Shown piece after piece: positions 4,127-63,890 of a DNA stretch of 64,000 nucleotides. The DNA comes from a virus, in the IMG/VR virus record IMGVR_UViG_3300034152_001291, positions 1 to 64,000 of that record; one strand, written 5' to 3'. The notes below the pieces were generated by a model, which saw only the letters and a list, made by a program, of their open reading frames with translations, had not been told where the DNA came from and made no database searches. Position 1 is the stretch's first letter. Each line of letters starts with the position of its first letter. The translations under genes were made by a program, and so were the position numbers.

Positions 4127-4159
4127 AAGTGCAGGTCCGGCGGTAAAGGACCTGCACTT
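4127..4159 (-). terminator. 12-bp perfect hairpin between GTCATAAGA and a gene start: terminator or attenuator
   Basis: A perfect 12-bp stem (AAGTGCAGGTCC with its complement) encloses a 9-base loop. On the minus strand it is followed by TTCTTTTGG, which fits an intrinsic terminator. It lies just downstream of the GTCATAAGA copy at 4161-4169, not upstream. It could therefore end read-through from the operon above, or act as an attenuator or stabilising leader for the gene at 4097. Confidence 0.65.
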
Positions 4160-4160
4160 C

Positions 4161-4169
4161 TCTTATGAC
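4161..4169 (-). promoter_or_regulatory. GTCATAAGA element, copy 2
   Basis: This is an exact copy on the minus strand, 64 bases upstream of the GTG at 4097. The bases after it (GAAGTG) match those after copy 4, and both copies are followed by a hairpin. That hints at a common leader design. Confidence 0.55.
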
Positions 4170-6546: not shown

Positions 6547-6560
6547 AGTTCACACACCTT

Positions 6561-6569
6561 TCTTATGAC
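6561..6569 (-). promoter_or_regulatory. GTCATAAGA element, copy 3, overlapping a stop codon
   Basis: The TAA inside this element is the stop codon of the gene at 6563-7246. The ATG of the next gene follows about 15 bases further on. An element that can double as the end of one gene and the signal for the next is more likely a transcription signal than a translated feature. Confidence 0.5.
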
Positions 6570-18559: not shown

Positions 18560-18595
18560 GAGAACTGCACACAACGGGTGAGTCTCGCAGTTCTC
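18560..18595 (-). promoter_or_regulatory. Leader hairpin after GTCATAAGA copy 4
   Basis: A 9-bp perfect stem (GAGAACTGC with GCAGTTCTC) with an 18-base loop lies five bases downstream of the GTCATAAGA element on the minus strand, upstream of the gene at 18514. The order of motif, hairpin, then gene repeats that seen at 4127-4169. Confidence 0.5.
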
Positions 18596-18600
18596 ACTTC

Positions 18601-18609
18601 TCTTATGAC
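18601..18609 (-). promoter_or_regulatory. GTCATAAGA element, copy 4
   Basis: This exact minus-strand copy stands between the stop of the gene at 18635 and the leader hairpin of the gene at 18514. Like copy 2 it continues GAAGTG. Confidence 0.55.
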
Positions 18610-19843: not shown

Positions 19844-19901
19844 GGTGAGAGCCTCCAAAAACAAAATTTTAGTCCGGCAGCAAACCGGTTCCTTTCACTC
19901 A

Positions 19902-19910
19902 TCTTATGAC
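19902..19910 (-). promoter_or_regulatory. GTCATAAGA element, copy 5, in the divergent control region
   Basis: This is an exact minus-strand copy in the 180-base gap between the minus block (start 19843) and the plus block (start 20024). A small hairpin (CCGG-TTTGCTG-CCGG) follows it in the leader. Confidence 0.55.
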
Positions 19911-31243: not shown

Positions 31244-31276
31244 TGGGTCTCCTTTCAAAGAGCTGTCTCTCATCTT

Positions 31277-31285
31277 TCTTATGAC
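31277..31285 (-). promoter_or_regulatory. GTCATAAGA element, copy 6
   Basis: This exact copy lies directly after a terminator (31295-31325) and 34 bases upstream of ATG 31243. It has the same order of terminator, motif, gene as copy 1. Confidence 0.6.
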
Positions 31286-31588: not shown

Positions 31589-31619
31589 ACAGGAGAGCGA
31601 AAAGGCTCCGTGGCATTGT

Positions 31620-31628
31620 TCTTATGAC
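31620..31628 (-). promoter_or_regulatory. GTCATAAGA element, copy 7
   Basis: This exact minus-strand copy is 85 bases upstream of the GTG at 31535. It lies within the leader of the divergent plus-strand gene at 31651. Confidence 0.5.
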
Positions 31629-34059: not shown

Positions 34060-35937
34060 TTGTCCACCGCCGATATTCGAGGACAGGTGAGCGATCGCGC
34101 CTACCCGGCGCCGAACTACCGTAGACTCGGTCTGGACATCTACCCGAGTCCGTATTTCGACCCTTCCAGCTGGTACATGCCCCCGACCATCAAGGAGCTG
34201 TTCCGCTGGTGCCTGTTCTTCTACCTGACCAACTCCACGATCGGTCCGATCATCCGGAAGAAGGCCTCCTACCTGATCACGGACCTGATCTACAGCACCA
34301 TGTCCTCGCGGACGAAGGACATCTGGAAGAACCTTCTCGAGAAGAGCCTCAAGATCAAGGAGTTCGAGTTCATCCTGATGATCGACTTCGAGGTGTTCGG
34401 GAACGCCTACGCCTCGATCATCTACCCCTTCGACCGCTTCCTGGTCTGCAAGAGCTGCGGCTTCGAGAACCTCATCGGGTCTTCCAAGTGGGAATACGAC
34501 GGGGCCAACTTCATCGTCAAGTGCAAGGAGTGCCACACGAAGCAGACGGCGAAGGTCAAGGACGTCCCCGTCAGGAACCGGAACCGGGTCCGCCTCCACA
34601 GGTGGTTCCCGATGTACATCGATCCCAAGAAAAACCCGATCACGGGGAAGACCCGGTACATCTACCGGATTCCGGGCTGGATCAAGAACAAGGTCAAGGA
34701 CCAGAAGATCAACAAGATCTACGTGGAGGACACGCCGCTCGAATTCCTCGAGGCGATCAAGAAGAACCAGGTGATCGAGCTGGACCCCGACAACCTCTAC
34801 CACTTCAAGCACGAGTCCGTCTCCATGGACGACGACTCGCTGGGGATTCCGCAGCTCCTCAACGTCATGAAGGACGCCTGGCTCTACTCCACCTACAACA
34901 AGTCCCAGGAGGCGGTGGCACTCGAGCACGTCCTTCCCCTCGACCTCATCTCGCCGGCGCCGGCGGCGGGGGCTCCCGCTCCGCACATGAGCACGGACCT
35001 CGGGACGTGGCGGGGCAGGATACAGAACATCATTTCCAACTGGCGCCGCGACCCCAACGCCCTGTTTCCCGTTCCCTTCCCGGTACAGGTGTCCCGTGTT
35101 CGCGGCGACGCGCAGGCCCTGACGCTTCACAACGACCTCCAGATGGTCCGGCAGCAGATCGCCGGCGGCCTCGACGTCCCTCCGGACTTCGTCTACGGGA
35201 ACATGACCTGGAGCGGAGGAAACGTCACGCTTCGGGTCCTCGAGAACCTCCTGATCAACCGCCTGTCCCGTCTCGAGTTCTTCGTTTCGGAATGGGTCGT
35301 TCCGCGGATGCGGAGATTCTTCCTTCTCCCTGCATGCGAGATCCGCCACCAGGAATTCAAGATGGCGGACGACGTGCAGCAGAAGCGGATCGCCATGGAG
35401 CTGCGCGCGACGAATACCGTGTCCGACAAGACCGTCCTCGAGGAGCTCGGCTTCGACCCGCACAAGGAGGAGGTCCGGAAGAACAAGGAGATGGAGCAGC
35501 GCCTGGCCGACATGAGGAAGCAGCAGATCGCCCAGGCCGAGATCGAGGCCGAGGTCAACATCATCCGGGCGAAGGCGGAGGCCGAGATCAGGAAGGTTCA
35601 GCAGGAGAGCATGGGGCAGCCCGGAATGGAGGGGCAGATGCCCGCGGAGCAGATTCCCACGGAGGTGCAGCCCGCGCAGGCTCCCGCGCCTCAGGCGCCT
35701 GCGCGTCCTCAAGCGCCCCCGCCGGAGGTTCTTGAAGCTCAGGTCATGAACTTCATGAAAAGCGTGCCTCCGGAGCAGCAGGAGTACCAGCTGAACGTGC
35801 TTGCCCAGCAAGATCCCATGTTGGCGAGGGCGATCCGCAGTCACCTGCTCCGGATTCAGAAGGGAAACCGGGAAGCATTTCGACCTCTTCCGGAACAGAA
35901 GCCCCCGGCAAGAGGGCCCGAGACGGCTCTTGTATAA
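34060..35937 (+). CDS. Portal protein
   Basis: The start is TTG 34060, preceded by GAGGAGTAAGTC. The 625-residue product has the portal body pattern: an N-terminal PPTIKELFRWCLFFYL, FGNAYASIIYPFDRFL near 110-125, and later GGLDVPPDFVYGNMTWSGGN near 369-388, then helices and a Gln, Pro and Ala-rich tail. Portals form the dodecameric gate through which DNA is packaged. This one carries a zinc finger inserted in the wing (Cys130, Cys133, Cys155, Cys158), which recurs in some large-phage portals. The long helix with EIEAEVNIIRAKAEAEI lies near 510. Confidence 0.85.
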   Translation: MSTADIRGQVSDRAYPAPNYRRLGLDIYPSPYFDPSSWYMPPTIKELFRWCLFFYLTNSTIGPIIRKKASYLITDLIYSTMSSRTKDIWKNLLEKSLKIKEFEFILMIDFEVFGNAYASIIYPFDRFLVCKSCGFENLIGSSKWEYDGANFIVKCKECHTKQTAKVKDVPVRNRNRVRLHRWFPMYIDPKKNPITGKTRYIYRIPGWIKNKVKDQKINKIYVEDTPLEFLEAIKKNQVIELDPDNLYHFKHESVSMDDDSLGIPQLLNVMKDAWLYSTYNKSQEAVALEHVLPLDLISPAPAAGAPAPHMSTDLGTWRGRIQNIISNWRRDPNALFPVPFPVQVSRVRGDAQALTLHNDLQMVRQQIAGGLDVPPDFVYGNMTWSGGNVTLRVLENLLINRLSRLEFFVSEWVVPRMRRFFLLPACEIRHQEFKMADDVQQKRIAMELRATNTVSDKTVLEELGFDPHKEEVRKNKEMEQRLADMRKQQIAQAEIEAEVNIIRAKAEAEIRKVQQESMGQPGMEGQMPAEQIPTEVQPAQAPAPQAPARPQAPPPEVLEAQVMNFMKSVPPEQQEYQLNVLAQQDPMLARAIRSHLLRIQKGNREAFRPLPEQKPPARGPETALV

Positions 35938-42521: not shown

Positions 42522-42790
42522 CGCTCGGCGCGGCGGGCGCCGGGCTGGGGATCGGCGGGGGGCTTGCCTCCCATCTCAGGAAGTACCGGGCTCAGAAGAA
42601 GGAGTGGCTCGCAGGACGGGCCAGTCCTCCCATCCACCCCAAGAGCGTCAAGGTCTGGGATTACCTCAGGCGTCCTTCCATGATCACGCCGAGCCTGGCC
42701 CGTCGCATCATGGGCGGGGCCGCCGCCGGGGCCGGGACCGCTCTCGCCTTGAATGAGATCCTCAAGCGTCTAAAGAAGCGCAAGAAATGA
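42338..42790 (+). CDS. Small protein with the shared motif and hydrophobic Gly-rich parts
   Basis: ATG 42338 follows GAGGAAGGGTCC. It opens SFAFRGFAEEIQKIADWREE, the shared motif. A charged stretch follows, then LTLGAAGAGLGIGGGLASHL and RIMGGAAAGAGTALALNEIL, two Gly and Ala-rich segments that may cross a membrane, and a basic end. It overlaps the previous gene by 184 bases and the polymerase gene by four. Confidence 0.68.
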   Translation: MGHQSSFAFRGFAEEIQKIADWREEVLGDGVRSDAQEVLPEEGGAQEKIARKKKKEEDGALTLGAAGAGLGIGGGLASHLRKYRAQKKEWLAGRASPPIHPKSVKVWDYLRRPSMITPSLARRIMGGAAAGAGTALALNEILKRLKKRKK

Positions 42791-45700
42791 TCAACGCCGA
42801 CCAGCAGTTTCCGGAGATGATGAAGCGGGTGGAGAACGCGATCTCCCGCGCTTTTCCCATCGAGTCCAAGCGGCACGTCATGGACGTCCGGAACCTGCGT
42901 TGGAAGAACTTCGGGCCTTCGATCCGGGACAACATCCGGCTTCAGAAAGAGTTCAAGAACAAGGACAAGACCCTCTCCGCCGACCTGGTCGGGGACGTGA
43001 GGATCCGGTCGAGAGCGGGGAGGGTGGTCGACACCAAGCCCGGCATGGTGCTCGTCACCCTCCCTCACATTACCAACCGGGCCTCCTACATCGTCAACGG
43101 CCACGAGGTGCAGACGGTGAACCAGCTCCGGCTGCGCCCGGGCCCCTACTCGAGGTTCACCTCCGACGACAACACGGAGACCTTCATCAATGCGGCGGGC
43201 GGAGGTTATAAGATCATCTTCAACCGCCAGACGGGCGTGCTCCGCTTGAAGTCCGGCTCCTCATTCTTCTACCTCTACCCGATCCTGAAGAGCCTCGGCG
43301 TCACGGACGCGCAAATGAAGTCGGCGTGGGGTGGCGATATCTTCACCGCTAACAAGGCGCACGACAAGAGCGATCAGGTTACGCGCCTCTACCGGAACAT
43401 GCGTCCTTACGCCGAGATCCCGGAGGATCCGGAGGAGCTGTCCACCGCCGTCGACACCTTCTTTCGTTCGAAGCAGCTCGACCCGAAGATCTCCAAGATC
43501 ACGATGGGGAAGGAATACGATCGGATCTCTCCCGACCTTCTTCTCCGGTCCAGCGGGAAGGCGATCGACCTGGCCAAGGGCAGCGTGGAGATGGACGACA
43601 CCGAGTCGCTCGCTTTCAAGTCCATCCACAGCGTCGAGGATTTCATCCCCGAGAGAATCGAGAAGGCCATCCCGAGCGTGAAGCGCGCGATCCAGTTCAA
43701 GATGGACAGGGCCCCCAAGATCTCGAGCCTTCTCTCTCCCGCGTCCTTCTCCAATCCCGTGATCGATTGGTTCATCACGAGCGAGTTCACCCGCTACTCG
43801 GACCAGCAGAATCCCGTGGACATGGCGTCGACGAGCCAGCTAACGACCACCATGGGAGAGGGAGGAATTCGAAGCGCCCACGCCGTGACCGACCAGGTGC
43901 GCATGGTTCACCCCTCCCAGATGGGTTTCTTGGATCCCATTCACAGCCCGGAGGGTGGTCGGATCGGTGTGACGGGGCACCTCACGATCGGAGCGGAGAA
44001 GAAGGGCGACAGCCTCTACACCAAGGTCATCGACGCGAAGACCGGCCGCCAGGTCTCGAAGAGCGCTCAGGACCTCGAGAACGCGGTCATCGCCTTCAAT
44101 GACCAGTACGACCTGACTGGGGACCGGCCACGTCCCTTGAAGCCGAGGGTGGAGGTCCGGGCAAAGGGGAAAATTCAGATTGTTCCAGCGTCGCAGGTCG
44201 AGTACGTCTTCAGGGATCCCAGGTCGTTCTTCTCGGTCACGTCGAACGCGATTCCCTTCCTCCACAACAACAACCCCAACCGCGGGCAGATGGCGGACCG
44301 CCACATCGAGCAGACCGTCCCCCTGACCGATCCGGACAGTCCCGTGGTTCAATCCAAGTTTCAAGGCAAGGAGGGCTTCGACGACTTCTTCGGCCGGAAC
44401 GTGAGCATCCAGTCCCCGGTGGATGGGACGGTCACCCTGGTTCGGAACGACCGGCTCAAGATCCGGGGAGACGACGGAAAGATGTACCTGGCCTACCTTC
44501 ACTACCAGTACCCCCTGAACGGAGGTTCGTTCCTCACGGACAGGCCGACCGTGAAGGCGGGGGACCGCGTCAAGAAAGGGCAGGTCATCGCGGAGAACAA
44601 CTTCTCGAAGGGAGGGGCGCTGGCTCTCGGCAAGACGCTCAGGACAGCTTACGTTCCTTACAAGGGCTACAACTTCGAGGACGGGGTGGTCATCTCCCAG
44701 GCCGCCGCGAGGAAGCTGACTTCCGAGCACCAGTATCAGCTCAGGCTCGACATCGACAGGAACACCAGGGTGGGGCTCGACATCTTCCTCGCGCACTTCC
44801 CGGACGAGATCGTGAACATCGATCGGGCCAAGTACGATCGGGACGGGATAGTCAGGAAGGGAAGCCGGGTCACCAAGGATGAGATCCTGGTCCCGGCCGT
44901 GTCCCAGACCGAGGTCAGCGAAGAATTCGACTACGCCCGTCTTCACAAGTCGCTGAAGAAGCCGTGGCGCAACGCCTCCATCGTGTGGGAGAGCGACTTT
45001 CCGGGTGAGGTCGTGGACGTCGTGAAGACCTCGAAATTCATCAAGGTGTTTCTTCGAACGGAGGAAGCTGCGCAGGTGGGCGACAAGGTCTCCCAGCGAT
45101 CAGGCGGGAAGGGAATCATCGTCAACATACTCCCGGATAATGAGATGCTCCAAGGAGAGGACGGGAAGCCGGTGGATGTCCTCTTCAATCCCGGGGGCGT
45201 CACGGGGCGCGTGAATCCGGGACAGCTCTACGAAGCGAGCATGGGGAAGGTCTCGAGGAAGACCGGCGAGAAGTACCTGGTGGAGAACTTCTCTCCGGAG
45301 TCGTCTCTCGACCGCGTTCAGGCGGAGATGCGAAAAGCGGGCGTCAAGGATACCGAGACGCTCACGGATCCCGGCACGGGGAACAAGATCAACGATATTT
45401 TTACGGGCGACATTCACTTCCTGAAGCTCCAGCATCAGGTTCGGAACAAGTTCAAGGCGAGAGGCCTCGGCAGTTACACGACGGACGAGCAGCCGAGCAA
45501 GGTCGGGAAGGAGTCGGCACAGAACATCGGATCTGGGGAGCTCTACGCTCTTCTCGCCTCGGGAGCCATGCACTTCCTGAAAGACACGACGACACTGAAG
45601 TCGCAGTCGAATCCTGAATACTGGCGCGCCCTTCAGACCGGCCTCCCCACGCCGCCCCCGCAGCAGCCTTTCATTCTCGACAAGTTCGTCACGAGTCTGG

Positions 45701-48700
45701 AGGGGGCCGGCGTCAACCTGGCCCGCGAAGGATCGAAGGTGAAGGCCCTCCCCATGACGGACAAGGACGTGGAGTCCCGGTCCAGGGGAGAGATCAAGAA
45801 CTTCACCGTGGTCCGGGCGTCAGACTTGAAGCCGGAGGCCGGAGGGCTCTTCGACAAGGGGATCACGGGAGGCTACGACGGGGTCCACTGGGCCCATATC
45901 GATCTCGAGACCCCCATGCCGAGCCCGCTCATGGAGAAGGCCCTGATCGCGGTCGCGGGCCTGAAGCCCGCCGAGTACAAGTCGATCATGCGAGGCACGC
46001 TCTTCGTGACGAGGGACGGGCACTTGACGACGGACTCGAAGAAGGGGGCGCCGGCGGGAGAAGGCCTGAAGATTCTCCTCGATAAGGTCAATGTGGAGAG
46101 GGATCTCGAGGATACGATTTCCCAGATCCGGATCGCCCGGGGCAGCAGGCTGGACGACCTGAACAAGAAGCGTCGCTACCTCCAGGCCCTGAAATCGTCG
46201 AAGCTCACGCCCTCCGAGGCCTACATCACAAGCAAGGTCCCCGTGATCCCGCCCAAGTTCAGGCCGGTCTACCCCCTGCCGGACGGGTCTCTGAACGTGG
46301 CCGACCCTAATCACGGGTATCGTGAAGTCCTGATGATCAACAATCAGCTGAAGGCGCTGAGGAATCAGGGTGTCGACAACAGGAATCTCGCTTCCATGCG
46401 GGCGGATCTCTACGGGGCTCTCCAGGGGTTGACGGGCATGACGGAGCCTCTCACCAGGGCCAAGAACTTCAGGGGCTTCGTCTCGACCATCAAGGGGAGG
46501 TCGAACAAGAGAGGGCTGTTCCAGGGAAAGGTGGTGAAGAGGCCCCAGGACCTCTCCGGGCGCTCTACGGTGATCCCCGATCCGAATCTCGGAATCGACG
46601 AGGTGGGTCTTCCGGCCGACATGGCGCTGACCATCTACAAGCCGTTTTTGGTGCGCCGTCTCGTGGGCATGGGCTACAAGCCCACCGAGGCCATGGATCT
46701 CGTCGACAAGAAAGATCCGAAGGTTTTGGACATCCTGAAGGACGAGGCGGCGGAGCGCCCGGTCTGGATGAATCGCGCGCCGAGCCTTCACAAATTCAGC
46801 ATGCTTCCCTTCAGGCCGAGGATCGCTCCCGGCAAGGCGATCCAGGTCAATCCCCTCATCGTGAAGGGGTTCAACATGGACTTCAACGGGGATTCCTGCT
46901 CGCCCGATACCGTCGTTTACGTTCGGCGTGTCTCCGATAGAACATTATTCGTGGGGTCTTTCGATGAATTTGTGAAGAACGAGCTCTTGCCTGGAATCGA
47001 TGACGCCGGTTTGGAGGAGATAGCCGGGGGCGTCACTGGAATTCTTGAGTTCGCTGATTCAGCTTATGAGGTCCTGGGACTTTTCGAGGGGAAAATTGCG
47101 TGGCAGCCTTTGAACCAGATAACGATACACACATCTCACGGGCCATGCTTTGAAGTCTCGTTCAAATCCGGTGACACTTTGATCTGTTCCGAGCACCACA
47201 ATCTATTCGGGGTGGATCCAGATACCCTCGATCTTTTCACTTTCAAAACCGAAAAGCATGAGGAGTATCCCGACGTTGTCGTCCCTATCGTCTCATTGTG
47301 GGATTCCGAACCGGTCGGCAACGCAAGGATTCCGGCCCTGGACTCGGGCAGGCGGCTGGATACTGTCCCTGTCGATGACGATTTGGCCTGGTGGACGGGA
47401 GTCTATGTTGGGGAGGGAAGCCTGACCGGACGGAATGATATCGTATCCTGTTCGTCTTCCGATCCGGAGATGCTTGGCCAGATCAAGATCGCTATGGAAC
47501 GCATTGGGCCCGTGTGGGAAACAGATAACCAGGTGAGGATAACAAGTAAAGATCTCTTCAAGGCTTTTGAGAGTGCTTTCGGAAAGGGAAGCCAGAACAA
47601 GAAGTTTCCGGATTTCGTCTTCGAGATGCCTCCGGCGCTTCGGTTGCAGGCCGTTGTCGGTTTCCTCGACGCGGAAGCACAGGCCGCATTTGATATCAAC
47701 GGTCGTCCATTCTTGACGGTAGAATTGACGAGTCTCCAGGCTCTCCGGCAAGTATCCATGTTGATGAGAAGCGTAGGCATCCGGAGCTCCATAAGAGAAG
47801 GTCGACCGGAAAAAACCGGAAGGAAGAAGACCTGGATTCTTTACGTTGAGAAATCCGGATTCGGGCTTCTTCCAAACTTTCGATCAAAATCGAAAAAAGA
47901 ATGGCAGGCTAAAGTTCGAAACTTTTCTGAAATCTCCAGAAGTCGGATGGATATGGTTCCAATGTTCGATTCGGTCTTCTCGGCTCTCACGAAGAAAGGC
48001 CTGGAGAATAGGACAGAGGATAAAAAGACGCGGGCCGAACGCAGAGCGTGGGCGAAAGAGTATGCTTCCAGCCATGGAGTTCCTTTCGGGCCTGTATCGA
48101 AAAGCGATCTTGTCGGGCATTCTTTGATAACACGTCGAGCCGCGTTCAGAATTGCGGCCTGGTACGGTCCATTCGAGAAGGATTCTCTTCTCGACAAGTG
48201 GAGATCCCTGGTGGAGAACACTTCCGTATCGTACACGGAGATTTCTTGCCGAGAAATCGACCGGCTCCCGATCCTTTACGATTTCAGCGTTCCTCCGAAT
48301 GAAGCCTTTGTTGTCAACTCTGGAATCGTGACGCACAACACCGTCGGCATCCATGTCCCCGTCAGCGAGGAGGCCCGGCAGGAGGCTTTCCAGAAGCTTC
48401 CGTCCAAGCAGCTGCTCTCGGTCCGGGAGCAGTCGGCGGTCCACACTCCGTCGAAGGAATATGTCCTCGGTCTCTACCTCATGACGCATCCCAAAGGAAA
48501 GACTGTCACGGCGAAGTCTCGTACCGACATGATGGCCCAGTATCAGGCCAAGAAGATCAAGGTGAACACGCCCGTGAAGATAGGGTCGGATATCTGGACG
48601 CCGGGCCAGGCTCTGGTCGACGATGTCTTTCCCGTAGGGCTGAAGCCCGGCAACAGGGTGATGGACAAGAGGACGGTGGAGACCCTTCTCTTCGAGGTCG

Positions 48701-50247
48701 CCAGAAAGGAGCCCAACAAGGCCGGTGACGTCATCAGCAGGATCAAGGACCTCGGCGCTCATTTCGTGACCGAGATCGGCTACTCCTTCGGGCTCGAGGA
48801 CCTCAAGTTCGACTACAAGAAACGCGAGCAGATCCTGGATGAGGCCGAGAAGAAAACGCCCAAGATCGGTTTCGAGAAGGCCTACGGGCAGGCTCTTGAC
48901 AAGATGAACAGCGAGATTCGGAAGACGAAAGGGAATCGGGTCGTCGAAGGCAGCATCACTTCGGGAGCTTTCGGCAAGGCCGACATGGTCACGCAGATGA
49001 TTGCCACGCCCGTGGCGGTCCGGGACCACAAGAATGAGATCATCCCGGTCCCTATCAAACGATCGTTTGCGGAAGGGCACGGAATTTCGAGCTACTGGGC
49101 AACGGCGCCGGGGGCTCGCAAGGGTCTGATCGAGAAGGGCCTCGGCACGGCGGAGACGGGAGCGCTGAGCAAGCGCCTGATCAACACCACCGTCACGCAG
49201 ACAATCAGCATGAAGGACTGCGGCACGACCGAGGGAACTCTGATGCCGATCGAGTCCCGCGACGCGCTGGACCACTTCGTCGCCGACGGCCCGTTCAAGA
49301 AGGAGGCGATCACGTCCGAGCTCGTGACACAGATGAAGCGACGCGGCCTGAAGCAGGTGCTCGTTCGGTCTCCGCTGAAGTGCGAGGCTCCCCAGGGAGT
49401 CTGCGCGATGTGCTTCGGCCTGCTGGAAAACGGGAAGGTCCCGCCGATCGGCTACAACGTGGGCGTCCTTTCGGGCCAGGCCGTCTCGGAACCCATGACC
49501 CAGCTCACTCTGAGGGCCTTCCATACGGGCGGAGCAATGGCGCAGAAGGCGGTCGGCTTCGACCGGATCAAACAGATTTTCGAACTCCCGGAGAATCTCC
49601 CTGGACGCGCCCCGCTCGCTCAGACCACGGGCAAGGTCGAATCGATCGACCCGGCTCCCGGCGGGGGTTGGATCGTGGTCATCGGGGGTGTGGACCATTT
49701 CGTGCCTCAGGAGCGCGGGCTCGGGGTGAAGAGAGGCGACAGGGTCTTGGCGGGTCAGCAGATCTCCAAGACCGGGGTCATTCGCCCTCAGGAACTACTC
49801 GCAGCCACGAACGACATCGATAAGGTTCGTGGCCAGATGGTGAAGGATCTCAACAAGGAGTTCGGGACGGGTGGTGTCCATATTCAGCGAAAGCTCCTCG
49901 AGACCGTCGTGCGCCCGATGACTGATCGAGCTGAGGTGACGGACGCCGGCGACGGAGAAAAGAAGGGCTACTTCAAGGGGGACGTCGTCGCCATAAACAA
50001 GCTCGAGAAGACGAACAAGGAGATCCGTAAGGCCGGCGGGAAACCGATCGAATATCAGCCCACTCTTTTGTCCATCCGCGTCGCCCCGTATCATAGCGGC
50101 GACTTCATCGGGAAGCTGATGTTCGAGCGTCCTCACGAGACGATCTCGGCCGCCCCGAGGATCGGCGCCGAGGCGGATGTGGTGAAGGGACACCCGATCA
50201 CGCGCCACACGTTCGGTCGCTACTTTGGAGCTCGGAATAAGAAATGA
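42787..50247 (+). CDS. Fused beta-beta' RNA polymerase with an intein in the catalytic loop
   Basis: One 2486-residue frame. Residues 1-~960 are beta-like: GYNFEDG at 627-633, VLFNPGGVTGRVNPGQLYE near 798-816, and a C-terminal GELYALLASGAMHFL. From about 975 it is beta'-like: LKPEAGGLFDKGITGG, GLFQGKVVKRPQDLSGRSTV, and PVWMNRAPSLHKFS. The catalytic loop GFNMDFNGD (1361-1369) is cut by an intein at 1370-1851, then TVGIHVP resumes. The zinc site C2145, C2199, C2206, C2209 and a trigger-loop region (QLTLRAFHTGGA from 2239) are present; the N-terminal beta' zinc finger seems absent. The middle catalytic Asp is Asn. Spliced length is about 2004. No alpha, omega or sigma gene is visible. Its place among virion genes may mean late or virion-carried enzyme. 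Confidence 0.93.
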   Translation: MINADQQFPEMMKRVENAISRAFPIESKRHVMDVRNLRWKNFGPSIRDNIRLQKEFKNKDKTLSADLVGDVRIRSRAGRVVDTKPGMVLVTLPHITNRASYIVNGHEVQTVNQLRLRPGPYSRFTSDDNTETFINAAGGGYKIIFNRQTGVLRLKSGSSFFYLYPILKSLGVTDAQMKSAWGGDIFTANKAHDKSDQVTRLYRNMRPYAEIPEDPEELSTAVDTFFRSKQLDPKISKITMGKEYDRISPDLLLRSSGKAIDLAKGSVEMDDTESLAFKSIHSVEDFIPERIEKAIPSVKRAIQFKMDRAPKISSLLSPASFSNPVIDWFITSEFTRYSDQQNPVDMASTSQLTTTMGEGGIRSAHAVTDQVRMVHPSQMGFLDPIHSPEGGRIGVTGHLTIGAEKKGDSLYTKVIDAKTGRQVSKSAQDLENAVIAFNDQYDLTGDRPRPLKPRVEVRAKGKIQIVPASQVEYVFRDPRSFFSVTSNAIPFLHNNNPNRGQMADRHIEQTVPLTDPDSPVVQSKFQGKEGFDDFFGRNVSIQSPVDGTVTLVRNDRLKIRGDDGKMYLAYLHYQYPLNGGSFLTDRPTVKAGDRVKKGQVIAENNFSKGGALALGKTLRTAYVPYKGYNFEDGVVISQAAARKLTSEHQYQLRLDIDRNTRVGLDIFLAHFPDEIVNIDRAKYDRDGIVRKGSRVTKDEILVPAVSQTEVSEEFDYARLHKSLKKPWRNASIVWESDFPGEVVDVVKTSKFIKVFLRTEEAAQVGDKVSQRSGGKGIIVNILPDNEMLQGEDGKPVDVLFNPGGVTGRVNPGQLYEASMGKVSRKTGEKYLVENFSPESSLDRVQAEMRKAGVKDTETLTDPGTGNKINDIFTGDIHFLKLQHQVRNKFKARGLGSYTTDEQPSKVGKESAQNIGSGELYALLASGAMHFLKDTTTLKSQSNPEYWRALQTGLPTPPPQQPFILDKFVTSLEGAGVNLAREGSKVKALPMTDKDVESRSRGEIKNFTVVRASDLKPEAGGLFDKGITGGYDGVHWAHIDLETPMPSPLMEKALIAVAGLKPAEYKSIMRGTLFVTRDGHLTTDSKKGAPAGEGLKILLDKVNVERDLEDTISQIRIARGSRLDDLNKKRRYLQALKSSKLTPSEAYITSKVPVIPPKFRPVYPLPDGSLNVADPNHGYREVLMINNQLKALRNQGVDNRNLASMRADLYGALQGLTGMTEPLTRAKNFRGFVSTIKGRSNKRGLFQGKVVKRPQDLSGRSTVIPDPNLGIDEVGLPADMALTIYKPFLVRRLVGMGYKPTEAMDLVDKKDPKVLDILKDEAAERPVWMNRAPSLHKFSMLPFRPRIAPGKAIQVNPLIVKGFNMDFNGDSCSPDTVVYVRRVSDRTLFVGSFDEFVKNELLPGIDDAGLEEIAGGVTGILEFADSAYEVLGLFEGKIAWQPLNQITIHTSHGPCFEVSFKSGDTLICSEHHNLFGVDPDTLDLFTFKTEKHEEYPDVVVPIVSLWDSEPVGNARIPALDSGRRLDTVPVDDDLAWWTGVYVGEGSLTGRNDIVSCSSSDPEMLGQIKIAMERIGPVWETDNQVRITSKDLFKAFESAFGKGSQNKKFPDFVFEMPPALRLQAVVGFLDAEAQAAFDINGRPFLTVELTSLQALRQVSMLMRSVGIRSSIREGRPEKTGRKKTWILYVEKSGFGLLPNFRSKSKKEWQAKVRNFSEISRSRMDMVPMFDSVFSALTKKGLENRTEDKKTRAERRAWAKEYASSHGVPFGPVSKSDLVGHSLITRRAAFRIAAWYGPFEKDSLLDKWRSLVENTSVSYTEISCREIDRLPILYDFSVPPNEAFVVNSGIVTHNTVGIHVPVSEEARQEAFQKLPSKQLLSVREQSAVHTPSKEYVLGLYLMTHPKGKTVTAKSRTDMMAQYQAKKIKVNTPVKIGSDIWTPGQALVDDVFPVGLKPGNRVMDKRTVETLLFEVARKEPNKAGDVISRIKDLGAHFVTEIGYSFGLEDLKFDYKKREQILDEAEKKTPKIGFEKAYGQALDKMNSEIRKTKGNRVVEGSITSGAFGKADMVTQMIATPVAVRDHKNEIIPVPIKRSFAEGHGISSYWATAPGARKGLIEKGLGTAETGALSKRLINTTVTQTISMKDCGTTEGTLMPIESRDALDHFVADGPFKKEAITSELVTQMKRRGLKQVLVRSPLKCEAPQGVCAMCFGLLENGKVPPIGYNVGVLSGQAVSEPMTQLTLRAFHTGGAMAQKAVGFDRIKQIFELPENLPGRAPLAQTTGKVESIDPAPGGGWIVVIGGVDHFVPQERGLGVKRGDRVLAGQQISKTGVIRPQELLAATNDIDKVRGQMVKDLNKEFGTGGVHIQRKLLETVVRPMTDRAEVTDAGDGEKKGYFKGDVVAINKLEKTNKEIRKAGGKPIEYQPTLLSIRVAPYHSGDFIGKLMFERPHETISAAPRIGAEADVVKGHPITRHTFGRYFGARNKK
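46894..48339 (+). mobile_element. Intein with LAGLIDADG endonuclease in the RNA polymerase
   Basis: The 482-residue element starts SCSPDTVVYV and ends FVVNSGIVTHN, with Thr as the next extein residue. Block B-like GDTLICSEHHNLFG is present. Two LAGLIDADG-type helices, GVYVGEGSL (near 1538) and VVGFLDAEA (near 1623), mark a homing endonuclease. I place the first residue at Ser, because the flanks then join as NGD-TVGIHVP, as in other polymerases; Cys one residue later is the alternative. The DNA is visibly richer in A and T than its flanks, which suggests recent arrival. Confidence 0.92.
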
Positions 50248-51555: not shown

Positions 51556-53319
51556 ATGACGACGAGTATCGACGGAAAGCCCCTCTTCATCACGAAAGAC
51601 GCCATCGCCGGCGACTTCGAGAAGACGGCGATGTACCGTTTGAGCCGCGACCCCTCCCAGTGGGAGAGGGAGATTCTGACCTTCCTGCACGAGCAGCAGC
51701 CCTTCCTCCAGGACTACGACGTGCGCGTTCACATGAACAAGACCGATCCTGATACTGGGGCCGGGGTGGGCCAAGTCGTCATCGAGGACAAGGTCGCCGT
51801 CCCCGTCATCATCGAGAACTTCAAGCTCTACCCTCTCGACATCTTCTGGCACGAGGACAAGCTGAAGCCCATGACCAAGCCGTCGATCATGTCGGCGCTC
51901 CAGACGATCTCCATCGGCAAGTCGGTGGAGCCGGGGCGGGGCGAGATCAGCGACATGAGCATCTACAACCTGACCCGTGCCCCCTTCTCGGGGAAGTACA
52001 GCTTCGCCGAGGGGCTCACGTACTCGCTCGACGATCTCCAGAGGATGGTCGAGACCCTCGGGGACGAGGGCTTCGAGTACGCGATGCGGTCCAACTTGAT
52101 GTTCAAGGAGGCCTTCGTCTCCTACGTCACGGGGGCGCAGGAAGGTCCCATCGAGAAGACCGCCCAGGACGAGAAGGGAGACGTCAGGGAGGTGGATTTC
52201 ACGCCCTACTACCCCGTCCAGTCAGCGGGCCTCCACGCGGTGGTCCGCGGCGGCCTCGACAAGGCGGCGGCCTTCGTCTTCGACCAGGTCATGGACTGGG
52301 ACGGAAATCTCGAGGAAGGTCGGAAGATGGCTCTCTGCCTGGACGACGGGTCGTACGCGATCCAGGAGTCCTTCGCCGGGCTCCCCATCGAGTCCGATGG
52401 GCTCGAGAAGAACGCGGAGGCCATGGATCCCTCCCGTCCGAGAAAGGGGGATGTGGGATTTTTCTGGCGCGTCAAGGAGGGCAGCGCCGTGGCTATGCGC
52501 CCGGCGGCGGTTCTCTATTCGGGAAGCGGGGAGGACTACGTGCCCTACGTCAAGGTGGCTGCATTGGGGTTCGATGGGAAGGAGAGAAGCATCTACCAGG
52601 GAGAGGCCTACCGGGACGCACTCGTCGTGGGTGAGGGGGTTTTCCTCTCCTCCGACTGGAACTGGACCAAGCTGGGGCGGGCCCGCACGCTCTCCGACCC
52701 TGCGGAGGCCAACCGGTTCGAGTGGCCGGATGGGGTTGCGAGCATTCACCGCCAGGGCTCCGGTCTCCGGGTCGAGGGTCTCGACGGATTTCCCAAGTAC
52801 GCCGAGAGCGAGAAGGTGGTGAAGGGAAAGCTCGAGAAGATCATGGCCCCGGAGATTCTCGGCACACTCCTCAAGAAGGCCAAGGGCGGCGGGAGCGTCT
52901 ACTTCGTCTTCACCAAGAGAGGGGTGGTCAAGGAGGCGTCCGAGCGTAAGCGCGACGCCCTGGTCAAGGTGGCCGGCACCCGGCTTGGACCCGTGAACCT
53001 GGTCCAAGCGGCAGCTCACCTGAAGCCGGCCCGCTATGACTTCTTCAAGCTGGCGGTCGACTTCGACGAGGAGAAGACCAAGAAGACCATCGACTCGGTC
53101 CTGAGCCTGAACTTCATCAATGATGACAACCTCTACAAATTCGTGGAGAATACATCGGATCTGGAGGAGGCAGTCGATGCCCTGGCGAAACTCCTGATCG
53201 GGGCGCGCCTCGGTCTCGACATCGAGGACTCTCCCATTCGGACCGCCCTCTTCTCGATGGACGAGGTGGTCAGGCAGCTGAAGCACTTGGGGTCCCAGGT
53301 GTATGGCGAAGAAAGCTAA
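51556..53319 (+). CDS. Large virion-region protein, unknown
   Basis: The 587-residue product starts MTTSIDGKPLFITKDAIAGD, followed by FEKTAMYRL, which loosely resembles the shared tag. It contains repeated IEKTAQD, LEKNAEA and VVKEASER segments. The body is alpha/beta with no clear domain. The ATG at 51571 lies shortly after the listed start but is less likely. Its place between the spike and terminase suggests a structural or baseplate role. Confidence 0.68.
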   Translation: MTTSIDGKPLFITKDAIAGDFEKTAMYRLSRDPSQWEREILTFLHEQQPFLQDYDVRVHMNKTDPDTGAGVGQVVIEDKVAVPVIIENFKLYPLDIFWHEDKLKPMTKPSIMSALQTISIGKSVEPGRGEISDMSIYNLTRAPFSGKYSFAEGLTYSLDDLQRMVETLGDEGFEYAMRSNLMFKEAFVSYVTGAQEGPIEKTAQDEKGDVREVDFTPYYPVQSAGLHAVVRGGLDKAAAFVFDQVMDWDGNLEEGRKMALCLDDGSYAIQESFAGLPIESDGLEKNAEAMDPSRPRKGDVGFFWRVKEGSAVAMRPAAVLYSGSGEDYVPYVKVAALGFDGKERSIYQGEAYRDALVVGEGVFLSSDWNWTKLGRARTLSDPAEANRFEWPDGVASIHRQGSGLRVEGLDGFPKYAESEKVVKGKLEKIMAPEILGTLLKKAKGGGSVYFVFTKRGVVKEASERKRDALVKVAGTRLGPVNLVQAAAHLKPARYDFFKLAVDFDEEKTKKTIDSVLSLNFINDDNLYKFVENTSDLEEAVDALAKLLIGARLGLDIEDSPIRTALFSMDEVVRQLKHLGSQVYGEES

Positions 53320-54378: not shown

Positions 54379-56184
54379 ATGAAAATCTCCTACGAAGATC
54401 CCGTCTCCAGCGGAATCCGCCGCGCGATCAATCCGGACAAGTTCCGGGTATGGGACACCCCTTCCTGTTCGGGAGACCTGGTCCAGGAGGGGGTGGTCGA
54501 TGTCGCCAAGGATTTCGAGTTCGAGCAGGCCTTCGAGGATAATGAGATCCTCCTCGAGGGGAAATACTCGGACTTCGCCCAGCACCTCGTGACGATCAAC
54601 CGGAAGCCCTTGTCTCTCGAGGGGCGGGAATACCTGAAGCCGATCTACGACCAGTACGAGGAGTTTCCCCGGGGATCGAAAGACATCGTCCTTGTCGCGG
54701 GAAGGCAGGTCGAGAAGTCCAGCTCGATGGCGTCCATTGCCATCACGCGCTGCTGTGTGATCCCCTCCCATACCGTGCTGGTCATCCAGCCCCGGGACGC
54801 CCAGACCAAGATCTTCAGCCAGCAGCGCTTCGACCCGATGGCCACCGACTCCGAGGTCCTTCAGGAGCTTTTCCTCGGGACCAAGAACGTGTGGCAGGTC
54901 GGCGCCAAGATCTTCAACAACGGTTCGGTCGCCAACTTCAAGTCCTGCTTCTATTCGGCGGACCCCATCCGGGGCATCACGTCGGGCGATCTCTTCATCG
55001 ACGAGTTGCAGGACGTGATATCGGACAACATCCCCGTTCTCGAGGAGTGCCAGTCCCACATCTTCCCCGAGGACCGGTTCAACCTCTACGCCGGGACGCC
55101 GAAGACGACCTCCAACACCCTGAACCTCCACTACAAGGAGACATGCCAGTTCGAGTGGATGGTGAAGTGCCAGGGCTGCAAGCACTACAACTTTCTCGAT
55201 GCGAAGGTCATCGGGAAGCACCACTACATCTGCTCGAGGTGCGGGAAGCAGATCTATCCTCTCCTGCACGGGGAGTGGGTCGCGATGCGCCCGAGCAAGA
55301 TCGACGATCGGTGGGGATTTCGCGTGTCGCAGATCATGGTCCCCTTCATGCGTCACAGCGAGGTCCTCAACAAGATGGAGAACCCGAACATCCCGACACG
55401 GGTTTTCCACAACGAGGTCCTCGGCCTCTCTTACGACGTGGGGCAGCTTCTCCTGACGGAGGGGGACATCCTCCGTCGTTGCGAGCCCAGGGTCCCCGAC
55501 ACGCACGAGACGATTCACAAGAGGAGGGATGTCTTCCTCTGCGCCGGGGTGGATCACGGGACCGGGGACTTCGCGGCAGGGGGCATGACGGATCTGGGTG
55601 TGGCCCGGAAGGCCTCCACCCGCCCCTCGTTCACTGCGATAGCGCTCGGCGGTTTCTGCTCCGACAACAAGTTCAGGATCTTCCGGCTGATCAAGTTCAC
55701 GGGGGAGATGGCGAATCTCGCCCGGCAGCCCGAGTTCATCGACGAGGTCATCCGATCCTATGGGGCGAAGTGGATCATGTCCGACCACGGTTTCGGCGCC
55801 CATACGAACGCCAGACTGGTGTCGGACCATGGCTGGACCCGCGTGGAGGACGAGCTGAATCCCCTTCTCATGGAGTGCGAATACTCGGGGATCCAGAAGA
55901 TTCCCGTGAAGTGGCACTCCCGAGCCTACCGCTACATCGTCCAGCGGAACTTCGCGATCGAGCACACCGTGGACGGGATCAAGAAGGGCGAGATCCTCTT
56001 CTTCAACGAGGGGGAGATGAAGCCCTACCTGGACGACTTCACGACCATGTTCACGGAGTACGATTTCAGGAGCAAGTCGGTTCGTTACGACCACGTCCTG
56101 CCGGACGACTGTTTCCAGGCCGTGGTCTACTGTTATCTGGCCGCCTTGCAGCGGCGGGGGAGGCTCACCCCCAGCTACGGTTAG
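54379..56184 (+). CDS. terL: Terminase large subunit
   Basis: The 601-residue product has the ATPase motifs of large terminases: a Walker A-like GRQVEKSSS (108-116, with Glu where Gly is usual), Walker B DLFIDELQD (204-211) and the coupling motif GTPKTT near 238. A zinc finger (CQGCKHY and CSRCGK near 264-289) is inserted between ATPase and nuclease parts. Nuclease Asp candidates lie in AGVDHGTGD (391), SDHGFGA (about 469) and LPDDC (about 576). The enzyme drives DNA into the head through the portal and cuts it. The small subunit is not recognised. Confidence 0.9.
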   Translation: MKISYEDPVSSGIRRAINPDKFRVWDTPSCSGDLVQEGVVDVAKDFEFEQAFEDNEILLEGKYSDFAQHLVTINRKPLSLEGREYLKPIYDQYEEFPRGSKDIVLVAGRQVEKSSSMASIAITRCCVIPSHTVLVIQPRDAQTKIFSQQRFDPMATDSEVLQELFLGTKNVWQVGAKIFNNGSVANFKSCFYSADPIRGITSGDLFIDELQDVISDNIPVLEECQSHIFPEDRFNLYAGTPKTTSNTLNLHYKETCQFEWMVKCQGCKHYNFLDAKVIGKHHYICSRCGKQIYPLLHGEWVAMRPSKIDDRWGFRVSQIMVPFMRHSEVLNKMENPNIPTRVFHNEVLGLSYDVGQLLLTEGDILRRCEPRVPDTHETIHKRRDVFLCAGVDHGTGDFAAGGMTDLGVARKASTRPSFTAIALGGFCSDNKFRIFRLIKFTGEMANLARQPEFIDEVIRSYGAKWIMSDHGFGAHTNARLVSDHGWTRVEDELNPLLMECEYSGIQKIPVKWHSRAYRYIVQRNFAIEHTVDGIKKGEILFFNEGEMKPYLDDFTTMFTEYDFRSKSVRYDHVLPDDCFQAVVYCYLAALQRRGRLTPSYG

Positions 56185-61277: not shown

Positions 61278-63890
61278 ATGATCACCGACGAAGGTCTTCT
61301 GATCACGCCTCTGGGGATGGACGTTCCCGAGTGGGGCCCGACGGCCATCCCGCTCCACCCCCGCGCCATGGAGAAGATCGCGTCGGGCATCTACATCCCG
61401 GATCGTCTCCTGGAGTTCATGGACCAGGTTCGGCCGAGGGATGACGGCCGCTACGTTCTTTTGCACGCGATCGGGGCGGGAGAGTATTGGGGATGTTTTC
61501 TGCCGGGCTCCCCTGTATTGACGGAAAGCGGTAGGTACCTTCCCATCGAAAAGATCTCTAAGGGGATGCGGGTGATGGGCCGCAGCGGCCTTTTCAGGGA
61601 AGTCCTCACTACATGGGAATACCGTCATCACCGTAGCGGTGTCCGGATCTCGGTGGAAGGTCTTGTCGATGATATAGGAACAACCCCAAACCACGAATTT
61701 CTCTCCCTCTCACATGAGGAGATTCTGTGCGCAAGAGATCGGACTGCGAGGTGTATTCCGGAGACGCAGGGCGCTCAAGGTATCTGCAAACGCCCCCAGT
61801 CGGTCGCTTGCGCCAAGAAGCCCAGGATCCTGACCGGGAAGTGGAGGCGTGCCGATAGCCTTGCCTTGAAGGATTTTCTGCTGTGCTCCATTCCGAAGCA
61901 CGACGCGCCTGCAATCTTCACCGAGGCGGAGGCTCGAGTAGTCGGTCTCTGGGTTGCTGACGGCAATTTCGTGTCGAATGGTGGTAGTGTCGACCTGGAG
62001 TTCTCAGTCTCCGATTCCGAGGCCTATCTGATCGACGACCTTCGGGCTCTCGGGTCTCCCCAGGTTTATAGAGGGCATGGGGCTTGTAAGTCTGTCCGGT
62101 TGAGGAACCACGAATTAGTGTCCAGAATCTATCGGCTGTTCGGCGAGTATTCTCATGGTAAACGGATTCCCGGAGACTTCGCCCGTCAGCCGGAGAACGT
62201 CATACTGGCTTTCCTTTCCGGCTACTTCGACGGCGATGGTTCTCAAAATCTGAAGGATGGCAGCGCCTACGCCCACACTGTCTCGAAGGATCTGGCTCTC
62301 GGAGTTCAGAGGCTTCTTTGGTCCGTCAGGATTCCGTCCACTGTCTGTCCCGCTCCGAAGGCCTATCATGTTCATTTCTCGCTCAGTAGAGGTAGAAGTC
62401 TGGCCGAGAAGTGTCGGAAATTCCGGAGGCACGCTCCGAAAGGACGGCCGCGTTACAGGCAGTTTTTCATCGATGACTACGTTTGTCTTCCGATTCGAAA
62501 GATGGAGAGATTCGAGATCGACGGCCCGGTCTACGATCTCGAAGTGGAAGAAGAGCACACTTATAACGTGGCTCAAGTCGTCTGTCACAACAGCAACAAA
62601 AATTCGGACTACTTCCCCGAGTGGAGTCTGAAGGGCGAGGAGATGCCTCCGGATGTGAAGGAGTACATCCGGGAGCACCGTCTGCCGATTCCGATCGAGT
62701 ACGGGCACAAGACGTTCGAGAGGTACGGGTATCCTTACTTCCATCACAACAACCACGACCCGATCCATTCGATCGGCGAGCGAGTCTGCTGCTCGGCCTA
62801 CAACGACAGGATGCACCGGGTCGAGCTGATCGTTTTCATCCTGAAGAGAAAGGCCCCAGATGTGATTCGAAGGATCGACCGGGGCGAGCCGGTTCCCTGG
62901 TCAATGGGGGCCAAGTTGCCTTTCGACGTGTGCGTGGTTTGCCGCCACCCGGCCCGGAAGAGGAGCGACTACTGTGAGCACCTTCGAAGCATGCTGGGGA
63001 GGATTCTTCCTGACGGTCAGAGGGTTTTCTCCCTGAACTACTTCCCCAGGTTCTTCGACATCAGCGTGGTGAGCGTTCCGGCGGACCGCAGTGCCTACTC
63101 CTTGAAGAAGGTCGCCTCCTATCTCCAGGAAGGGAAGGCCAGGGTGGTCTGGACCCCGGGCATGGACCACGCGTCGGTAGAGCCGGTCCCCGTGGGAGGT
63201 TCAGAAGAGATGGAAAAGTTCGCCGGCATGCTCGACTACCTGGCGAGCGGAGGGGAGAAGTCCGCGGACATCGAGAAAGAGGTTCCGGCCCAGGAGCCCG
63301 CCAAGGACCTCGGAGAGAGTCCGATCCACCCTGATCTCTGGAAGGTCCTCTACGACATGGCGGCCAAGGATCGCGCCGGGACCCCCGAGATGGAGGGCGG
63401 TCTCCTCTCCAGCCTGAGGAGCGAACCCCTGAGAAAGGCCCTGACCGCCCTCACCTCCCTGGGGATCATGTTGAAGCCCAGGGAGGCTGACAGCCTGATC
63501 GGGGATCAGGAAATGCCAGACGGACTTGACGAAGAGGAACCTTCCTCTAAACTGTTAGATGAGTTGACGGGGCTGGTTCCGGAGCGATCCATGGTCGAGC
63601 CTCATTTCTCGATCAGGATCATCCGGATTCGACGTCCGGATTCGTCCCCTTCGGACATCGTCAAGGAAGGGGGCGCCTACGACAGGTACCTGAAGTGGCT
63701 GAGATCGATCGACCTCGAGAAGTTCGCGGAACTGGCGGAGCGTCCCGAGGTCGAGGCCGCGATGGCCGGGAAGGCGCTGAAAGAGAAAAGCCTGAACTTC
63801 CTGGACAAGACGGCCGGAAGGGACTTCGGTCCTTTCCTTCCTTTCGTCGCAGCCATGATGGTCGAGTCGGATCTCCGACCAACCCCGTAG
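61278..63890 (+). CDS. Prohead-protease-like structural protein interrupted by an intein
   Basis: The 870-residue frame loses 366 residues on splicing, leaving about 504. The spliced junction reads GAGEYWG-SNKNSDYFPEW, matching the conserved EYWG-x-N-x-NGD segment of a protein found in head operons of large phages and often called prohead protease. FHHNNHDPIHSIG, RVELIVFIL, WSMGAKL, DVCVVC, RSDYCEHL and FFDISVVSVPADR follow in the expected order. The C-terminal 250 residues are less conserved. Whether it is the protease itself or a linked capsid protein is not settled from sequence alone. The next gene should be scaffold or capsid. Confidence 0.78.
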   Translation: MITDEGLLITPLGMDVPEWGPTAIPLHPRAMEKIASGIYIPDRLLEFMDQVRPRDDGRYVLLHAIGAGEYWGCFLPGSPVLTESGRYLPIEKISKGMRVMGRSGLFREVLTTWEYRHHRSGVRISVEGLVDDIGTTPNHEFLSLSHEEILCARDRTARCIPETQGAQGICKRPQSVACAKKPRILTGKWRRADSLALKDFLLCSIPKHDAPAIFTEAEARVVGLWVADGNFVSNGGSVDLEFSVSDSEAYLIDDLRALGSPQVYRGHGACKSVRLRNHELVSRIYRLFGEYSHGKRIPGDFARQPENVILAFLSGYFDGDGSQNLKDGSAYAHTVSKDLALGVQRLLWSVRIPSTVCPAPKAYHVHFSLSRGRSLAEKCRKFRRHAPKGRPRYRQFFIDDYVCLPIRKMERFEIDGPVYDLEVEEEHTYNVAQVVCHNSNKNSDYFPEWSLKGEEMPPDVKEYIREHRLPIPIEYGHKTFERYGYPYFHHNNHDPIHSIGERVCCSAYNDRMHRVELIVFILKRKAPDVIRRIDRGEPVPWSMGAKLPFDVCVVCRHPARKRSDYCEHLRSMLGRILPDGQRVFSLNYFPRFFDISVVSVPADRSAYSLKKVASYLQEGKARVVWTPGMDHASVEPVPVGGSEEMEKFAGMLDYLASGGEKSADIEKEVPAQEPAKDLGESPIHPDLWKVLYDMAAKDRAGTPEMEGGLLSSLRSEPLRKALTALTSLGIMLKPREADSLIGDQEMPDGLDEEEPSSKLLDELTGLVPERSMVEPHFSIRIIRIRRPDSSPSDIVKEGGAYDRYLKWLRSIDLEKFAELAERPEVEAAMAGKALKEKSLNFLDKTAGRDFGPFLPFVAAMMVESDLRPTP
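61494..62591 (+). mobile_element. Intein with LAGLIDADG endonuclease in the protease-like gene
   Basis: The 366-residue element starts CFLPGSPVLTESG, has block B GTTPNHEFLSLS, and ends VYDLEVEEEHTYNVAQVVCH followed by Asn; Ser is the next extein residue. VVGLWVADGNF (near 221) and FLSGYFDGDG (near 312) are the paired LAGLIDADG helices. All splicing residues are intact, so it should be active. It is shorter than the polymerase intein and not closely similar to it. Confidence 0.93.

Follow-up and report, generated by a model that had tools for sequence, protein, structure and literature searches.

The closest annotated relatives of the RNA polymerase described here belong to Salmonella phage Arash and Vibrio phages D69, D148 and D181, found by tblastn among the GenBank phages. 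In these phages a protein of ~1525 amino acids (aa) comprises the beta subunit and the beta' subunit up to ~90 aa past the catalytic motif, without the N-terminal zinc finger of beta' (Zn1), and the rest of beta' is encoded by a second gene (~606 aa). Their polymerase genes lie near the portal and capsid genes, and the phages carry sigma-like genes of their own. The fused nature of the longer protein, gp206 in Arash, is unmentioned in the accessible text of the Arash paper (PMC10585845). Here we analyse a gene of the same family (~30% identity) in a 64,000-nucleotide stretch of viral DNA, positions 1 to 64,000 of the 124,703-bp IMG/VR record IMGVR_UViG_3300034152_001291, which we call the window. 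The gene (42787-50247, + strand) is a single open reading frame (ORF) of 2486 aa that encodes beta and then beta'. It differs from the Arash and Vibrio genes in that its beta' is not split again, its catalytic motif is DFNGD whereas theirs is DYDGD, and it carries an intein, whereas their polymerase genes that were read have none.

The Pfam matches follow each other along the ORF in the order Rpb2_3, Rpb2_6, Rpb1_1, Rpb1_2, LAGLIDADG_3, Intein_splicing, Rpb1_3 and Rpb1_5, and the chain would have 2004 aa once the intein is removed. The beta portion covers ~aa 1-985 (42787..45741), with an approximate boundary placed from Pfam, phmmer and the predicted model. It is followed by the N-terminal portion of beta' (~aa 986-1369, 45742..46893; Pfam Rpb1_1 and Rpb1_2, alignment with Salmonella beta'), which has no Zn1 and ends the N-extein. 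Beyond the intein, the C-extein (48340..50244; Pfam and alignment) holds the C-terminal portion of beta' with Rpb1_3, Rpb1_5, the bridge helix, Zn2 and the trigger loop, all these parts being on the + strand. The N-extein matched bacterial beta chains with an E-value of 9e-79 in phmmer, and the beta' half of an intein-free relative, L015, matched bacterial beta' from the pre-clamp through the C-terminal part (E 7e-108). The AlphaFold model of aa 1-1060 of the window protein, that is, beta plus the junction, reached a pLDDT of 83.6 and a pTM of 0.76, and Foldseek related it to cyanobacterial, Thermus and mycobacterial beta (E 7e-75, TM ~0.76). The beta' fold was modelled on L015 and not on the window's own beta' (pLDDT 83.3, pTM 0.73; Foldseek to bacterial beta' E 3e-68), and the alignments were shallow, with 31 and 26 rows. 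In a motif alignment that included Salmonella beta', the clamp coiled coil, which is the sigma-binding element in bacteria, the bridge helix, the trigger loop and Zn2 of beta' all align, the GYNFED and K-motif regions of beta are recognisable, and Zn1 is deleted in the window and in every family member aligned. Both double-psi barrel halves of a bacterial-type RNA polymerase are present, judging by these profiles and models, and Zn1 appears to be the sole major core domain absent. The first-pass annotation had described one frame with beta and then beta', about 2004 residues after splicing, with readable segments of both subunits and no N-terminal zinc finger in beta'. The exact ORF, the Pfam order and an intein of 482 aa agree with that description, and the search with RpoB and RpoC profiles and the structure prediction that it had proposed recovered both halves.

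Regarding the distribution of the fusion, a search of IMG/VR with an alignment as query found 364 related loci (a single-sequence query had found nothing), and the best 80 of the 364, with a few near-duplicates among them, were fetched. Beta and beta' are in one ORF, mostly 2000-2200 aa long, in 66 of the 80, six are split in the manner of Arash, and the other eight are truncated or incomplete in another way. Since these 66 loci, on other contigs, also have one ORF, the fusion is not an artefact of assembly or of a frameshift. With bacterial sequences as the root of the tree, the family stands apart from bacterial RpoB/RpoC (support 0.92 for the family node and 1.0 for the family plus Carin-5) and the split members are one clade (support 1.0), the deepest branching order inside the family being weak (0.13). 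As the family is coherent and its split members form one clade, the fusion of beta and beta' would be ancestral, and the simplest reading is that beta' was later split again in the Arash-type clade. The family of fused phage polymerases thus appears to be large and widespread, with fusion as its rule. Three GenBank 'phage' records with separate beta and beta' (L004, L005 and L006) grouped with Clostridia and Bacteroidetes; we left them out of the phage evidence, since they are probably bacterial contigs submitted under a phage name. Separately, two bacterial metagenome-assembled genomes (MAGs; G013, contig C36, and G017, contig C11) have frames of 2662 and 2729 aa that match beta and the N part of beta', which hints at rpoB and rpoC read in one frame.

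The intein of the window's gene (aa 1370-1851, 482 aa, 46894..48339, +; Pfam, junctions and alignment) is inserted immediately 3' of the catalytic motif and has all the hallmarks of an intein: a nucleophile at residue 1 (Ser), a C-terminal His-Asn, a Thr at +1 and a LAGLIDADG homing-endonuclease region (LAGLIDADG_3, aa 1625-1687, 47659..47847, +; E 1.9e-7). The Intein_splicing match (E 0.001) is under the family cut-off. The junctions read NMDFNGD/SCSPDTVVYV upstream and VTHN/TVGIHVPV downstream, and the predicted ligated sequence NMDFNGD-TVGIHVPV is equal in length to that of the relatives (NMDFDGD-TVGIHVPV in L021). We preferred the Ser1 junction because both the block A spacing and the length of the intein-free relatives agree with it. 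A Cys1 junction, with an N-extein ending in DS, was dropped, as it leaves one residue too many in the product.

This motif does not have the composition expected of it. Multisubunit RNA polymerases, and likewise the intein-free relatives, have three Asp in it (NADFDGD), whereas in the window it is NMDFNGD (aa 1363-1369, 46873..46893, +; translation and alignment), with Asn (codon AAC) in the place of the middle Asp, a change that had been overlooked in the first-pass annotation. Among the 80 fetched loci, all the relatives with a readable motif and no intein at the site (76/76) have DFDGD or DYDGD. Four sequences of this unbiased set have an intein directly behind the motif (the window, L018, L062 and L076), and Asn occurs in the triad of two of these four versus none of the 76 intein-free ones; a Fisher test of the association, run with 75 intein-free sequences and with relatedness ignored, gave ~0.002. 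Scanning IMG/VR for the pattern G[FY]NADFNGD returned five stretches, all of the same polymerase family and each with an intein directly behind, and NMDFNGD returned one polymerase, L100, which is also intein-bearing. In 257 Gb of genome contigs, the only matches to [FY]NADFNGD were one clear rpoC (L273) and a 95-aa fragment (L260). L273, from a Salinibacterium MAG (JANXTJ010000228.1), resembles a cellular rpoC, has FNADFNGDQMAVH and lacks an intein; it is either a MAG error or a real variant.

Three classes of intein at the catalytic site were distinguished by a scan on the C-terminal junction, which is independent of the motif. The class with Ser1 and the end HN/T has DFNGD in the window, L131, L169/L185/L206 and L221, and DFDGD in L234. 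The class with the end SN/T and a non-nucleophilic residue 1 has DFDGD in L018, L229, L235, L239 and L240, and DFNGD in L100; residue 1 of these six is Leu, Asp, Gln, Glu or Ala, with Thr at +1. The class with Cys1 and the end D/T has DFDGN in L062 and L222, and DFDGD in L076. Regarding this last class, in L062 (=L226) and L222 (=L224, L225) the front is DFDGN/C and the end WD/T, and the Asn and the Asp seem to have changed places, as would be seen if the true junctions were one residue further upstream. Moving both junctions by one residue would restore DFDGD there; such a shift was also tried for the window's Ser1 class, where none works. Further inteins occur at conserved beta sites in L018, L021 and L054, with junctions such as GDKL/C...GN/SNRAGGKGI in L018 and HTPEG/C...GN/SKVGVTGH in L054.

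Within the phage family, only alleles whose catalytic site carries an intein have Asn in the triad, and this holds in several lineages. Furthermore, L030, which has no intein and reads DFDGD, is 73% identical to L169 and belongs to its sister group (support 1.0). Because this intein-free sister keeps the Asp, the Asn is tied to the intein and not to decay. By these comparisons the Asn appears and disappears together with the intein, as would be expected if homing co-converts the adjacent codon. Tyr815 of beta was considered as a compensating change, since all five intein-bearing DFNGD sequences with a residue in that column have it (L100 is gapped), and this role was dropped because Tyr815 is also present in the intein-free L015, L016 and L030. 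No other column of the motif alignment separated the DFNGD group with a clear meaning. No second intact copy of the polymerase was found on the window's contig. Eleven further intein-bearing contigs showed no sign of one either, and in the twelfth record (L240/G012) the matches are fragmented.

Sigma factors, RpoA, the large terminase subunit (TerL), capsid proteins and promoter motifs were scanned in a sample of 24 family contigs. The window's contig has two sigma-70-like genes (record coordinates 76024-76875, -, and 121121-121819, +), and sigma-like genes were found in all five contigs tested of the window's clade. An RpoA-type domain above the cut-off was found in none of the 24 contigs, the control genomes being positive. 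As for promoters, the 9-mer GTCATAAGA has nine copies in the contig versus ~0.4 expected from an estimate on composition. All of them are on the minus strand (1235, 4169, 6569, 18609, 19910, 31285 and 31628 in the window; 110865 and 123473 in the record), and eight lie between genes, for the most part 40-100 bp ahead of the next start. The longer pattern GTCATAAGA-NN-RRTG has eight copies in the contig, each upstream of a gene, and two to four in each of L018, L014 and L017 of the same clade, on one strand per genome, while the reversed pattern, used as control, gave one match across the 24 contigs. The candidate promoter motifs that the scan located in the window are, all on the minus strand, GTCATAAGAGAAGTG (4155..4169 and 18595..18609), GTCATAAGAAAGGTG (6555..6569), GTCATAAGATGAGTG (19896..19910), GTCATAAGAAAGATG (31271..31285) and GTCATAAGAACAATG (31614..31628). 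Several copies of GTCATAAGA run straight into an inverted repeat, for example GTGCAGGTCC...GGACCTGCAC after 4169. These GTCATAAGA(NNRRTG) sites are likely to be phage promoters with 5' stem-loops.

The first-pass annotation had placed the polymerase between lysis-like and baseplate-like genes of the virion block. Virion genes do flank it, but the conserved neighbours are others: a homologue of the portal protein, Arash gp204 (34087..35937, +), is near the polymerase gene in 66 loci, a homologue of gp218, a protein detected in Arash virions (51556..53319, +), in 62 loci, and TerL, in the window a GpA-type protein assigned by profile matches to phrog_675 (54379..56184, +), in 41 loci. Homology also identifies a gp222-like gene of the virion block (61278..63890, +), with a weak head-protease match and a LAGLIDADG intein of its own, and a gp226-like major capsid protein is encoded further along the contig. 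Other intein or LAGLIDADG matches of the same phage are in DNA polymerase A and in a class II ribonucleotide reductase (G000, 89817-93200 and 95782-98934, both -). Rfam and tRNA scans of the window gave no matches.

According to the accessible part of the Arash paper, purified virions contain gp204, gp206, gp216, gp218, gp222 and gp226 (PMC10585845). In the same data gp206 (beta and the N part of beta') has the most spectra of all the virion proteins (3516, with 128 unique peptides and 100% coverage), the C part of beta', gp216, has 1210 and the sigma factor gp10 has 467 (PMC10585845). Our rough calculation from these figures gives 2.3 spectra per residue for gp206 and 2.0 for gp216, compared with 1.5 (portal) and 4.3 (capsid protein). 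That the polymerase of the window's phage is packaged, which the first-pass annotation had raised, is therefore well supported by homology, and in that sense only, because its homologue gp206/gp216 is abundant in the purified Arash virions.

We consider it probable that the gene encodes a single-chain, sigma-assisted polymerase of bacterial type which is spliced, works without alpha, is packaged and injected, and transcribes early genes from phage-specific promoters. The 2486-aa precursor would be translated late in infection, and the intein in the catalytic loop would excise itself and leave the 2004-aa chain. This chain would fold into its beta and beta' parts with no help from an alpha dimer, which we propose to be dispensable because the fusion itself brings both halves together. 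The mature enzyme would be packaged and would enter the cell along with the DNA, where, together with a phage sigma-70-like factor, it would start the transcription of early genes at the candidate GTCATAAGA-NN-RRTG sites. Several points weigh against this proposal. The link between the GTCATAAGA motif and the fused polymerase is circumstantial, and the use of sigma may not be general, because 14 of the 24 contigs, which may be incomplete, have no sigma_r2 match. Furthermore, a multisubunit polymerase is expected to be crippled when any one of the three Asp is replaced, and with DFNGD as its catalytic motif the competence of the window's enzyme is not to be taken for granted. Regarding packaging, ribonucleotide reductase, ligase and primase are listed among the 116 'virion' proteins in the accessible Arash data, so carry-over in these preparations is possible, and the Arash authors themselves offer both early transcription and carry-over as readings (PMC10585845). 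Carry-over or bulk trapping would be the source of the Arash signal if the enzyme were a non-virion polymerase, made after infection to transcribe middle and late genes like the non-virion RNA polymerase of phiKZ/AR9. The phage sigma-70-like genes could drive such a late programme, and the location in the virion block is alone no proof of packaging. Nevertheless, no protein in those data has more spectra than gp206, which is roughly equimolar with its other half, gp216, and across the family the portal and other virion genes are close to the polymerase gene, so we regard a non-virion enzyme as unlikely, although worth keeping in mind.

The remaining alternatives concern the Asn, which the mature enzyme of the window would bear at a normally invariant catalytic residue. 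The polymerase may be dead or crippled and retained as a structural or promoter-binding protein of the virion, or rescued by co-infecting relatives, as the substitution itself and the lack of a second gene copy found on the contig would suggest. However, the frame of 2000 aa is intact and conserved, DFNGD recurs with intact ORFs in separate lineages, and the Asp of the sister L030 shows that the Asn goes with the intein, which makes a dead enzyme improbable. It could also be argued that DFNGD arose as an error in sequencing or assembly, or that it represents an uncommon dead allele of the population sampled, since a single G-to-A transition suffices and the MAG rpoC L273 shows that DFNGD without an intein does occur in assemblies. 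This explanation is largely refuted and we give it hardly any credit, because the same codon change is found on L100, L131, L169/L185/L206 and L221, always directly before the intein, and in none of the 76 readable intein-free relatives. Turning back to an active polymerase, we suggest only tentatively, and with some doubt, that the intein-bearing members make a working enzyme despite the encoded Asn, either because the Asn is tolerated or because it is converted to Asp after splicing. Such a conversion is conceivable because the Asn stands in an Asn-Gly pair, which in general protein chemistry is a fast-deamidating one. If true, a virion polymerase would be activated with a delay linked to its intein, a type of control that we did not find described. 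In any case, inteins in the active site and the loss of a catalytic Asp are repeatedly associated, which challenges the view that an intact DFDGD triad is essential. More generally, the family would represent a compact bacterial-type RNA polymerase in one gene, apparently alpha-free and probably virion-borne, that is, a natural minimal polymerase in which to study how such an enzyme assembles, uses sigma and recognises promoters, and Arash offers a relative in culture.

Among other known systems, archaeal A'/A'' and eukaryotic second-largest subunit genes have inteins at conserved polymerase sites, as the window does, and no intein-linked substitution of a catalytic Asp is reported for them there (PMC1635734). 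In the literature searched, we came across neither a complete fusion of bacterial-type beta and beta' in tailed phages nor an intein-linked loss of the catalytic Asp. The mReC phages (Weinheimer and Aylward 2020) are also tailed phages with bacterial-like beta/beta' that branch outside the bacteria, and the accessible part of their description mentions no fusion, intein or virion location. The TerL of the window belongs to PF05876/phrog_675 and not to PF03237/VOG01069 as is usual in mReC, PF03237 being above the cut-off in two of the 24 contigs; the mReC capsid family PF07068 matched none of the 24, with the control likewise giving no matches anywhere. The mReC phages may overlap with the fused family, perhaps substantially.

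The virion and non-virion RNA polymerases of phiKZ and AR9 are likewise phage relatives of cellular beta/beta', and their virion enzyme is injected for early transcription. Nevertheless, they are divided into four or five polypeptides, have no sigma homologue and match much more weakly in sequence, whereas the window has a single ORF and sigma-70-like genes. The virion RNA polymerases of crAss-like phi14:2 and of P23-45, the latter fused to the tape measure protein, also have two double-psi barrels per chain and serve early genes. These enzymes form a highly divergent two-barrel clade, invisible to cellular RpoB/RpoC models, whereas the window's protein, far from such crAss-like or QDE-1-like divergence, matches the rpoB/rpoC models strongly. 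A natural one-chain fusion of beta and beta' is also known from the rpoBC of Helicobacter and Wolbachia (NF007172, NF011417), but these proteins are cellular and ~2840-2890 aa long, and the window's protein scores 478 bits against the NF007172 equivalog, with a cut-off of 5372. The first-pass view of the fusion as unusual holds with respect to the split enzymes of phiKZ and AR9, but not within a widespread family of which it is typical. Polymerases in phage virions, two-barrel polymerases of a single chain and fusions of rpoBC in bacteria had each been known before.

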